DNA of 64,000 nt from Balneolaceae bacterium (GTDB lineage Bacteria > Bacteroidota > Rhodothermia > Balneolales > Balneolaceae). The stretch covers positions 1-64,000 of the forward strand of contig VEMX01000017.1 of NCBI GenBank assembly GCA_009711805.1, written 5' to 3'. This document shows positions 6,264 to 10,159 of this stretch, in pieces; the first letter of the stretch is position 1; each line of letters begins with the position of its first letter. The translations under genes and the position numbers were made by a program. The notes below the pieces were generated by a model. It was given only the letters and a program-made list of their open reading frames with translations. It searched no databases and had not been told where the DNA came from.

Positions 6264-7154
6264 CTATTCCAAGAATCTTAAAATTGAGCCCTTGATATCA
6301 ATGAGGCTATCAACACAATTAAATATATCCGCTCCCTCTCCAAAAACAAATAAAGGAACCTTATTTCGGGTATGAGTTTTGGTAGACAGGTCTTCCAGGT
6401 TACCGTGATCGCTACTAATCACCAACAGGTCTTCACTTCTCTTATGCTCGATGATATGCATTAAAAACTCGTCCAGTGGTTTTAATACCCGCCCGGCATC
6501 TTCCGGCCGTTGACTGTGCCCGGCTTTATCCGTCAGATAATATTCATAGAGTAGCAGATCATAATCTGGTAGGATATTAAGTACCCTTTTGGCTGCATCA
6601 ACAGCTGTTATTTTTGGGATGTCTATATCCAACCGTTCTCTCCAGGCATTCTGAACGATTTCGGCTGTAAGGGCTTTTTCACTCAATATTTCTTTAGTGG
6701 AGTTCAATCTCATATCCGCACTCTTGGTCATAAGAGTGGTACAGCTCCAGCGATTCCTTCTTTTGGCGTGTGCAAAGAATATGGGTGGATAGGCGTTCAT
6801 GAAATAAGGTTTCTTTCCCATCTCCTTCACTCCATGAAAAATACTCTTTGACTGCAGAAGTGGTTTAATCCCCGAATGAGGATACGGTCCAAAATGCTTA
6901 CCTATCTTTTTGGAAGCATTATGACCGGTAAACAAGCTGGTTTGTCCGGTTCCGCTTTGGGGTAACCCTTCCACCCCGAGGTTGGCATCAATAGGTTTAA
7001 AAAGGTGATTACTGGTAGTTATTGATTGGGCCTGGTTGTCGAATGGTGCACCAATCAGTACTTCAAACGAATCGTACCGTTGGCTATAAAACGGGTTTTC
7101 CTCTCCGGCATTGCCCAACCCTACGCCATCAATAAATACGAACAGAACAGCCAA
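6264..7154 (-). CDS. Alkaline-phosphatase-superfamily metalloenzyme
   Basis: A 296-residue protein of the metalloenzyme superfamily that includes cofactor-independent phosphoglycerate mutase and phosphopentomutase. The metal-binding FIDGVGLG is at residues 7-14, the phosphate-accepting threonine is probably in SGTGQTSLFTG, and the C-terminal metal cluster is SSDHGNLED followed by THTRNKVPLFVFG. It is shorter than phosphoglycerate mutase, so it is more likely a generic phosphohydrolase or phosphotransferase. It is one base upstream of the decayed toxin frame and one base downstream of dtd, so dtd and this gene form one unit. Confidence 0.75.
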   Translation of the reverse strand: MAVLFVFIDGVGLGNAGEENPFYSQRYDSFEVLIGAPFDNQAQSITTSNHLFKPIDANLGVEGLPQSGTGQTSLFTGHNASKKIGKHFGPYPHSGIKPLLQSKSIFHGVKEMGKKPYFMNAYPPIFFAHAKRRNRWSCTTLMTKSADMRLNSTKEILSEKALTAEIVQNAWRERLDIDIPKITAVDAAKRVLNILPDYDLLLYEYYLTDKAGHSQRPEDAGRVLKPLDEFLMHIIEHKRSEDLLVISSDHGNLEDLSTKTHTRNKVPLFVFGEGADIFNCVDSLIDIKGSILRFLE

Positions 7155-7155
7155 C

Positions 7156-7596
7156 CTATTTCTCCAGTATGATGGTTACCGGTCCGTCGTTTTCAAGCTT
7201 CACATTCATCATGGCTCCAAATTTTCCGGTTTCAATATCTAAATCGGAATGCTCTTTAAAATAGGTAATCATATCTTCATACATAGGTTCGGCCTTATCC
7301 GGTCGGGCTGCTTCTATAAAGCTGGGACGGGTGCCTTTGCGTGTATTTCCATATAGAGTAAACTGGGATACCACCAATATTCCCCCGCCTATATCCGAAA
7401 CCGAACGGTTCATTTTGCCTTCTTCGTCTTCAAAAATACGGAGCTTCAATATTTTATTGCAGATCCATTCCATTTGCTCGGGGCTATCGTCCTGATGGAT
7501 ACCTACCAGTAATAAAAGCCCTTTACCTATAGAGCCTGTTACTTTATTATCGACGATTACAGAAGATGATTTTACGCGCTGAACGACTACTTTCAT
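7156..7596 (-). CDS. dtd: D-aminoacyl-tRNA deacylase
   Basis: About 146 residues, standard length. Cuts D-amino acids from mischarged tRNA. The chiral-proofreading SQFTLYGNTRKGTRPSF block and the C-terminal Gly-Pro motif (NDGPVTIILE) are both present. A TTG three codons upstream would extend the frame to 7605, but the ATG giving MKVVVQRV is the family-typical start and I use it. The gene ends one base before the metalloenzyme gene. Its 5' side faces the DnaA-box-rich region. Confidence 0.95.
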   Translation of the reverse strand: MKVVVQRVKSSSVIVDNKVTGSIGKGLLLLVGIHQDDSPEQMEWICNKILKLRIFEDEEGKMNRSVSDIGGGILVVSQFTLYGNTRKGTRPSFIEAARPDKAEPMYEDMITYFKEHSDLDIETGKFGAMMNVKLENDGPVTIILEK

Positions 7597-7605
7597 GATC
7601 AACAA

Positions 7606-8008
7606 AAATGTGGATTACTATGTGGATTACTCGGTAATAACTATTGGATAACTTTTTTCTCCAAAAGTTTTGAACAAGTTTCCACATTATCCCCAACAAA
7701 TCAACATTCAAAAAGAATAACTTTTGATGTTAACTAATATTACACTCATTATATGTGCAATTTATAAATCCGTGTTGATAAGTCTTAGTCAACTAACTTA
7801 ACATATTGTTTTATATACACAGATAATCAACAAAGTTATCCACTATTCATTCACTTTATTTTTTATAACTTGGATAAAAATGTTATCCACATATCCACAC
7901 TCTCTACTAACTATTACTATATATATAAATCTCACACTAATAATATATACCTGTGGAAAATTGATCAAAAAAGCTCTCAAAACACTCTTTTAAACATGGT
8001 ATATTTAT
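7606..8008. other. Candidate replication origin (DnaA-box cluster, AT-rich)
   Basis: A gene-free, very AT-rich 400 bp between divergently oriented genes. DnaA-box matches to TTATCCACA: perfect at 7883-7891; eight of nine at 7609-7617 and 7621-7629 (minus orientation), 7687-7695, 7836-7844, 7891-7899 and 7952-7960 (minus); weaker ones at 7643-7651, 7678-7686 and 7869-7877. An almost pure A/T tract at about 7905-7950 could be the unwinding element. All genes to the left for 7 kb point left and the next two to the right point right, as expected at an origin. dnaA is not in the window, which is common in Bacteroidota. Confidence 0.6.
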
Positions 8009-8029
8009 TTGAATCAAAACTCAGGAATC

Positions 8030-8554
8030 ATGAATAAAAAATATCCAATAGGTCAGCTTTCTTATTCAGAAGATTACACAGATGATGAGCTTGATAATTG
8101 GTTGAATGACATTGCTCTTTTACCAGATCGAATCCGTGATGAAATACAAGGATGCTCTGATGATATTTTGTTAACTCCCTATCGCGATGGTAGTTGGAAT
8201 ACACGACAACTCATAAGTCACCTTATTGATAGTCATTCTAATGCCATCAATCGAATTAAGTTTGCTCTTACTGAAGATAGTCCATCGATCAAACCTTATG
8301 ATCAGGATGCCTGGGTTGAAATAGAAGATCAGTTTGGGTTACCATTGGAAATGAATCTGGATTTGTTGGAAAATATTCATGAGAAATTGGTTCGTATGTA
8401 CTACAGCTTAAGTGAAGCCGACTGGAAGCGTACCTATACCAAAGAAGGTAGTGGTACTTATACACTGAGCCATTCAGCTGCATTGTATGCCTGGCATTCA
8501 AATCATCATTTAGCACATATACGGCTGGTAACCCGGGAAAAAGCCAATAATTAG
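8030..8554 (+). CDS. DinB / YfiT-type metal-dependent transferase
   Basis: About 174 residues, four-helix DinB fold. The N-terminal YPIGQL, the TPYRDGSWNTRQLISHLIDSH block and the HSNHHLAHI segment near the C-terminus carry the three metal-ligand histidines, matching the YfiT/BstA group of putative thiol transferases or hydrolases (bacillithiol S-transferase in Bacillus). The cofactor used here is unknown. I place the start at the ATG at 8030, which has TCAGGA four bases upstream, rather than a TTG at 8009. It is the first plus-strand gene after the candidate origin. Confidence 0.8.
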   Translation: MNKKYPIGQLSYSEDYTDDELDNWLNDIALLPDRIRDEIQGCSDDILLTPYRDGSWNTRQLISHLIDSHSNAINRIKFALTEDSPSIKPYDQDAWVEIEDQFGLPLEMNLDLLENIHEKLVRMYYSLSEADWKRTYTKEGSGTYTLSHSAALYAWHSNHHLAHIRLVTREKANN

Positions 8555-8589
8555 TTCAGCTTTAATTACTATCAAATCATATAAATCAG

Positions 8590-8612
8590 TTAACCCAGAT
8601 TAGTATTAACCC
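8590..8612 (+). promoter_or_regulatory. Tandem TTAACCC direct repeat before purM
   Basis: TTAACCC occurs at 8590-8596 and again at 8606-8612, ending right against the purM ATG. The first copy continues as CAGATTA, resembling the end of the dispersed TTAACCCGGATTATTCAC repeat, so it may be a decayed repeat end rather than a control site. Confidence 0.25.
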
Positions 8613-9620
8613 ATGAGTGATAAAAAACAGTTTACCTACAAAGATTCCGGTGTAGATATTAAAGCCGGAGAAGAACTGGTTGAATCCATCAAAGGTGTAG
8701 TTAAAGATACCCACGGACCCCAGGTATTAAGTAATATTGGAGGTTTTGGAGGATTCTTTCGTCCAGATCTCGGGTCTTTTGAAAATCCCGTGTTTGTGAG
8801 TTCGGTTGATGGTGTAGGTACTAAATTGATTGTAGCCTTTAAAGCGGGCAAATATGATACTGTTGGCCAGGATCTGGTAAATCATTGTGTTAATGATATT
8901 GCTGTGTGTGGGGCAACTCCACTCTTTTTCCTGGATTATTTTTCTACCGGGAAGCTGGAACAGCATGTGGGATATGATGTGATTAAGGGCTTTGCCAAAG
9001 CATGTAAAGATAATGGGGTAGCCCTGATTGGCGGGGAAACTGCCGAAATGCCCGATATCTATTCTGAAGGTGAATTTGATCTGGCTGGTACCATTGTGGG
9101 CATTGTGGATGAAAATAAGGTTATCAACGGATCGGATATTCAGAAGGGAGATGTGCTATTGGGTTTCAAAAGTTCCGGATTGCATACCAATGGATATTCG
9201 CTGGCCCGCAAAGTATTATTCAGCAAGCATAAAGTTGAAAATTATGTAGAGGAACTGGGCAGTACAGTAGGGGATGAATTGCTGAAAGTTCACAGATCGT
9301 ATTTGTCGCTTATTTCCGAATTAAAAGAACTGAAAGGGGTAAATGGCTTTTCTCACATCACCGGAGGGGGAATTGTAGGCAATACCAAACGTATTCTTCC
9401 CGAGGGACTGAAACTCAATATCAATTGGGAAGGATGGGAACGCCCGGCCGTGTATAAACTGATCCAGGAAATAGGAAATGTACCTGAAGATGATATGCAG
9501 GCTACCTTTAACCTTGGTATAGGGCTTATTACTGTTGTATCAGAAGACCAGGCGGATGCTGTAAAAGCCAAAGCAAAAGAGCTGGGCGAAGAGGTTATTG
9601 AAGTTGGGAATGTTATGTAA
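8613..9620 (+). CDS. purM: Phosphoribosylformylglycinamidine cyclo-ligase (AIR synthetase)
   Basis: A 335-residue enzyme of de novo purine synthesis, closing the imidazole ring of FGAM with ATP to give AIR. Typical blocks are YKDSGVDIKAGEELV at the start, SSVDGVGTK, GGETAEMPD and the C-terminal GGGIVGNTKRILPEG. Normal length, no disruption. It stands alone rather than in a pur operon; the next gene downstream is convergent. Confidence 0.97.
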   Translation: MSDKKQFTYKDSGVDIKAGEELVESIKGVVKDTHGPQVLSNIGGFGGFFRPDLGSFENPVFVSSVDGVGTKLIVAFKAGKYDTVGQDLVNHCVNDIAVCGATPLFFLDYFSTGKLEQHVGYDVIKGFAKACKDNGVALIGGETAEMPDIYSEGEFDLAGTIVGIVDENKVINGSDIQKGDVLLGFKSSGLHTNGYSLARKVLFSKHKVENYVEELGSTVGDELLKVHRSYLSLISELKELKGVNGFSHITGGGIVGNTKRILPEGLKLNINWEGWERPAVYKLIQEIGNVPEDDMQATFNLGIGLITVVSEDQADAVKAKAKELGEEVIEVGNVM

Positions 9621-9685: not shown

Positions 9686-10159
9686 TTAATGTTGAAAATT
9701 TCTTTTTGGAGGTTTTGTACCTTCAATAAAAACATCAGTCATTAGCTCTACAATTTTCTCCTCTTCTTTCAGGTAGGTAGCCCGGTAATGAATACCACGT
9801 GAAAAGAATATGATATCTACATAGATAATTTTATCTGTTGTTTCATATTCCTGAAATTCAATGAGCATCTTTTCATTTGCCTGTTTTTTTTCATGAACAC
9901 CAATGGTCCATTTATCAATAACTATTACAGTACCTGCTTTCCATGCACACTTATCATTGGTTATGAGCTGATAGGTATCAGATCTCCTTACCAGATCTTT
10001 AATAGAATGATCCTTTAACATTTTCTCTAAAATTAGTTTTTGGTACTGTTTATTTGTGGTTTGGGCAACACAAACACCCATAAGAGAAGATGAAAAGATG
10101 AGTAATAAGAATATTCGGGATAGGGTTTTGTGTGTTTTCATAGATGGTTTAAAACTCAT
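9686..10159 (-). CDS. Hypothetical secreted protein
   Basis: 157 residues with an N-terminal signal peptide (hydrophobic LSRIFLLLIFSSSL followed by an Ala/Gln cleavage region, CVAQT). I do not recognise the family. The mature part is charged with several beta-like stretches (GTVIVIDKWTIGVHE, KIIYVDIIFFSRGIHYRATYL). The first ATG overlaps the stop of the upstream lipoprotein gene by ATGA; a second ATG six codons later (MKTHKTL) is also plausible. Likely co-expressed with that lipoprotein. Confidence 0.6.
   Translation of the reverse strand: MSFKPSMKTHKTLSRIFLLLIFSSSLMGVCVAQTTNKQYQKLILEKMLKDHSIKDLVRRSDTYQLITNDKCAWKAGTVIVIDKWTIGVHEKKQANEKMLIEFQEYETTDKIIYVDIIFFSRGIHYRATYLKEEEKIVELMTDVFIEGTKPPKRNFQH

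Follow-up and report, generated by a model that had tools for sequence, protein, structure and literature searches.

The intergenic region between dtd and a DinB-like gene (positions 7597–8029) is, judging from its sequence, almost certainly oriC, the single DnaA-dependent origin of replication of this Balneolaceae chromosome. It lies in the window, the whole 64,000-nucleotide stretch analysed here, which belongs to contig C14 of a 4.08-Mb draft genome in 99 contigs (G000). Among named genomes, Balneola, Gracilimonas and Rhodohalobacter have the most similar dtd, which places the organism in Balneolaceae or close to that family. The region holds an array of DnaA boxes whose register is conserved among relatives, a DnaA-trio motif and a core present in a single copy in this genome, and the sign of GC skew changes at this region rather than at dnaA. 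An earlier note, made from the letters alone, had put forward a candidate chromosomal origin at this place, and it is borne out by the box array, its conservation and the skew switch.

The intergenic region and its flanking genes

The gene-free interval measures 433 bp, has 73% A+T, and is bounded by the ATG of dtd on the minus strand (7594–7596) and the ATG of the DinB-like gene at 8030. To its left, dtd (D-Tyr-tRNA deacylase, PF02580; 7156–7596, minus strand) is linked to the origin throughout Balneolales. To its right follow, both on the plus strand, the DinB-like gene (PF12867; 8030–8554), which is missing from some relatives, and an AIR synthase (purM) family gene (8613–9620), which adjoins the origin directly in several relatives. 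The earlier note had described a strand switch of all flanking genes; the adjacent genes do diverge and the main open reading frames on the left are on the minus strand, but 'all' was an overstatement, as the right side has only the two plus-strand genes before returning to the minus strand at 9686. Its description of the DNA as AT-rich with an A/T-only tract agrees with our findings, runs of 12–14 bp of A and T only being present at three places (7855–7868, 7918–7930 and 7938–7949).

Near the right edge, TATATTTATTTG (8000–8011, plus strand), in which TATATTT is conserved in relatives, is likely a promoter element of the rightward DinB–purM genes. A search of positions 7000–9000 against Rfam returned no known RNA. 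We also observed a block that contains no DnaA box, AAAAAGAATAACTTTTGATGTTAAC (7710–7734). Most copies of this origin in Balneolaceae retain it, and it may act as the promoter of dtd or as a binding site for a further origin protein.

DnaA boxes and the unwinding core

Against the consensus TTATCCACA, positions 7606–8008 contain one perfect and seven one-mismatch DnaA boxes, and against TTATNCACA one perfect and nine; of the one perfect and six one-mismatch boxes counted previously, the former figure stands and the latter becomes seven or nine according to the consensus. The accompanying claim of a density far above chance holds for this intergenic cluster, with ten boxes versus about one expected: simulated sequences matched in composition to these 403 bp gave on average 0.9–1.2 boxes, with none of 2000 reaching ten, and elsewhere in the 64 kb no 400-bp stretch had more than three.

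The boxes most distal to the unwinding site form a pair on the minus strand, TAATCCACA (7609–7617 and 7621–7629), 12 bp apart and conserved in position. They are followed by a one-mismatch box recognized by motif match, TTATCCCCA (7687–7695, plus strand), whose adjoining sequence TTTCCACA (7679–7686) is the better conserved of the two in relatives, and by two boxes of conserved position, TTATCAACA (7773–7781, minus strand) and TTATCCACT (7836–7844, plus strand).

The best-conserved stretch (7883–7960) consists of TTATCCACA-TATCCACA and, after a gap of four bases, repeats of the CTACTA type, an A/T-rich part and an inverted TGTGGAAAA. It opens on the plus strand with tandem DnaA boxes recognized by motif match, TTATCCACA/ATATCCACA (7883–7899), which overlap by one base and would form the platform of the unwinding system. 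The DnaA-trios, CTACTA-A-CTATTACTA (7904–7919, plus strand; 3'-GAT-5' on the other strand), are separated from the first tandem box by 12 bp. From its position, the stretch at 7904–7951, with 79% A+T and two of the A/T-only tracts (7918–7930 and 7938–7949), is the putative DNA unwinding element, and it ends at an inverted DnaA box on the minus strand (TGTGGAAAA on the plus strand; 7952–7960) that is nearly invariant in relatives.

A basal unwinding system is described as tandem boxes, a 10–13 bp spacer from the better box, and trios of consensus 3'-GAT-5' (PMC8287927). Its first feature, a box or tandem boxes with a spacer to the trios of at most 16 bp (peak 10–13), is present here in the tandem boxes at 7883–7899, with trios from 7904 at 12 bp from the first box. 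For its second, at least three trios in register, the window copy is split into two trios, one extra A and three trios. The relatives L006, L007 and L009 have four to five trios in register, in an uninterrupted run in L006 and L009.

By analogy with the biochemistry of B. subtilis, from which filament growth, melting and helicase loading are extrapolated, DnaA encoded elsewhere on the chromosome would fill the distal boxes (7609–7844), which would help to build the DnaA complex, and then the tandem boxes (7883–7899). From these an ATP-DnaA filament would grow onto the DnaA-trio strand at 7904–7919 and melt the A/T-rich stretch 7904–7951, up to the inverted box at 7952–7960. Two helicases would be loaded at the melted stretch, and two forks would depart in opposite directions.

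Conservation of the core and its linkage to dtd

Most Balneolales genomes, across genera and families, have the box array upstream of dtd, in a fixed register that is kept even where single boxes have drifted. R1, a sequence-only model of the unwinding core, found one match in this genome (E 3.8e-18), and the exact tandem-box 17-mer (7883–7899) likewise occurs once, as expected of an origin present in one copy per chromosome. In the set of relatives, R1 had matches in 54 of 59 genomes, although 25 of these loci had served to train it and so match by construction; the remaining genomes are independent. Comparison of coordinates placed the match next to dtd in 51 of the 54. In two of the exceptions (G001 and G055) the core lies at the end of a contig and no dtd was found, while in the third, G056, a member of Balneolales, core and dtd lie on separate contigs (C208 and C344), an apparent break of the linkage.

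Across the phylum, no box cluster was seen at the dtd flanks of the loci sampled outside Balneolales, and R1 matches in other orders of the class lie away from dtd. In several families of sister orders (L295, L296, L299 and L300) comEC is close to the core, and nusB or moeA is also in the vicinity. In the genomes checked it is not beside dnaA, the nearest case, at about 12 kb, being a family with two dnaA genes. With dtd as its neighbour in Balneolales and comEC/nusB or moeA in the sister orders, one homologous core could be the oriC of the whole class, a portable conserved module moved as a unit between neighbourhoods; we give even chances to this reading.

The family with two dnaA genes (f12) is represented by three class-level relatives, G184, G192 and G193, each with the core about 12–12.5 kb from one of the two copies.

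Strand composition

A GC-skew minimum at the site, which the earlier note had expected, was found as far as a draft allows: the window genome shows a local switch at about 7.9 kb, and two closed relatives, G033 and G043, show the change chromosome-wide. For the relatives, whole-chromosome skew was taken from sampled stretches, while the window genome contributes the local switch alone. The array lies at the skew minimum in G033, in G043 and in the pooled profile described below. In G033 (3.75 Mb) the samples up to about 297 kb have negative skew, and those between about 320 kb, the position of the array, and about 2.2 Mb are mostly positive, the change being placed to within about 20 kb; the sampled maximum, at about 2.2 Mb, is half a chromosome from the array, and dnaA (3.62 Mb) belongs to the negative arm. 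The array of G043 (4.29 Mb) is at 270 kb; the sign flips between the 20 kb on its left and the 20 kb on its right, with dnaA (0.7 kb) in the negative arm. In G023 skew changes close to dtd, and dnaA lies about 370 kb inside the positive arm. In a closed genome of a sister order (G086, 4.50 Mb) the R1 match at 2,394,067, a locus with other gene neighbours, falls on the skew zero crossing, and both dnaA, at 2.324 Mb, and dtd, at 2.067 Mb, are off it, in the negative arm.

Raw cumulative skew of contig C14 alone is not decisive, because its minimum over the full contig falls at the far end, and so we used third-codon skew by gene orientation. When this measure was pooled over 14 genomes in 2.5-kb bins, all left bins were negative and all right bins positive, the switch falling in the bin at the core, and the same held for plus- and minus-strand genes. 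Gene orientation thus cannot cause the switch, since it is present in genes of both orientations. Ten further genomes gave a right-flank skew above the left in all ten cases, for both total and third-codon skew; the third-codon change was weak (+0.034) in G018.

Just past the window, at about 68000–84000 of C14 (L087), skew turns strongly negative, against the sign of the replichore, and the cumulative value falls from +394 to -520. This stretch beyond about 68 kb may be inverted or of foreign origin.

The dnaA gene

As the earlier note had stated, dnaA is absent from the locus: there is none in the window, and the gene is present in this genome on another contig, C17, whose GC skew is uniformly positive. 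Neither dnaA nor dnaN adjoins the origin region, and dnaA is outside the skew switch in G000, G023, G033 and G043, at about 0.27–0.45 Mb from the origin in relatives of the order with closed genomes or long contigs. The encoded DnaA has the full set of main domains (PF00308, PF08299, PF11638), among them an intact box-binding domain IV with the motif GGRDHSTVIHA. Upstream of dnaA (L002, 750–1030, on C17) we observed four DnaA boxes, two perfect and two with one mismatch, which probably serve autoregulation.

Alternative interpretations

Promoters too carry DnaA boxes, and the interval is a divergent promoter region; the array might accordingly be read as a DnaA-titration (datA-like) site or as a regulatory site for dtd and DinB–purM, with replication starting elsewhere. 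We consider this highly improbable, as it leaves unexplained both the strand-composition switch in many genera and the anatomy of tandem boxes, trios and A+T-rich DNA. Nor does the core follow dtd, given that it is on another contig in G056 and beside comEC/nusB or moeA in sister orders.

Less probable still is an origin at dnaA, as in many bacteria, to which the dtd-side cluster would be secondary. While the boxes upstream of dnaA on C17 would fit such an origin, the contig that carries dnaA in this genome has uniformly positive skew over its entire length, and in G023, G033, G043 and G086 dnaA is about 70–450 kb inside one arm. We give least credence of all to a chance or compositional effect: DNA of 73% A+T scanned with a relaxed nine-base motif does yield many chance matches, but not one of the 2000 composition-matched simulations reached the count, and box positions are conserved over genera and families. 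A chance origin of the cluster is refuted by the simulations together with this positional conservation.

Comparison with known origins

The origin of E. coli is away from dnaA, and its proximal box has the unwinding element on the CACA side. The dtd-side oriC of Balneolaceae shares both of these features with it, but is without the gidA/mioC neighbours. It also resembles the incC part of the B. subtilis oriC (DnaA-boxes 6/7 and DnaA-trios; PMC6669920, PMC8287927), in that tandem boxes are followed by 3'-GAT-5' trios and then by an A/T-rich stretch, with further boxes upstream, and its 12-bp spacer is within the 10–13 bp peak found across bacteria (PMC8287927). In contrast to incC, it is unlinked to dnaA, flanked instead by dtd and DinB/purM, and has a nearly invariant inverted box past the unwinding element.

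DnaA-dependent origins unlinked to dnaA are an already known kind, of which the Balneolaceae site is a new example, because origins remote from dnaA have been reported to be common in Bacteroidetes (PMC4755523). A similar case, although from a different lineage, is the predicted origin of Prevotella intermedia chromosome 1, where boxes cluster at a GC-skew transition that is remote from dnaA (PMC4755523). The papers that we searched described no Balneolales origin and no link to dtd, an earlier automatic prediction (DoriC) being possible; text matches to 'oric' in PMC7029141 refer to the genus Oricola and not to an origin. The stable linkage of dtd and origin thus appears to be new to the literature searched.

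For Balneolales, in which replication is seemingly unstudied in those papers, the analysis provides a precise predicted origin and a base-level map of its putative unwinding element. With dtd as marker gene, the core sequence model offers a means of locating the origin in draft genomes. Software that uses dnaA for chromosome rotation or growth-rate estimation would be off by about 0.27–0.45 Mb in the relatives measured.
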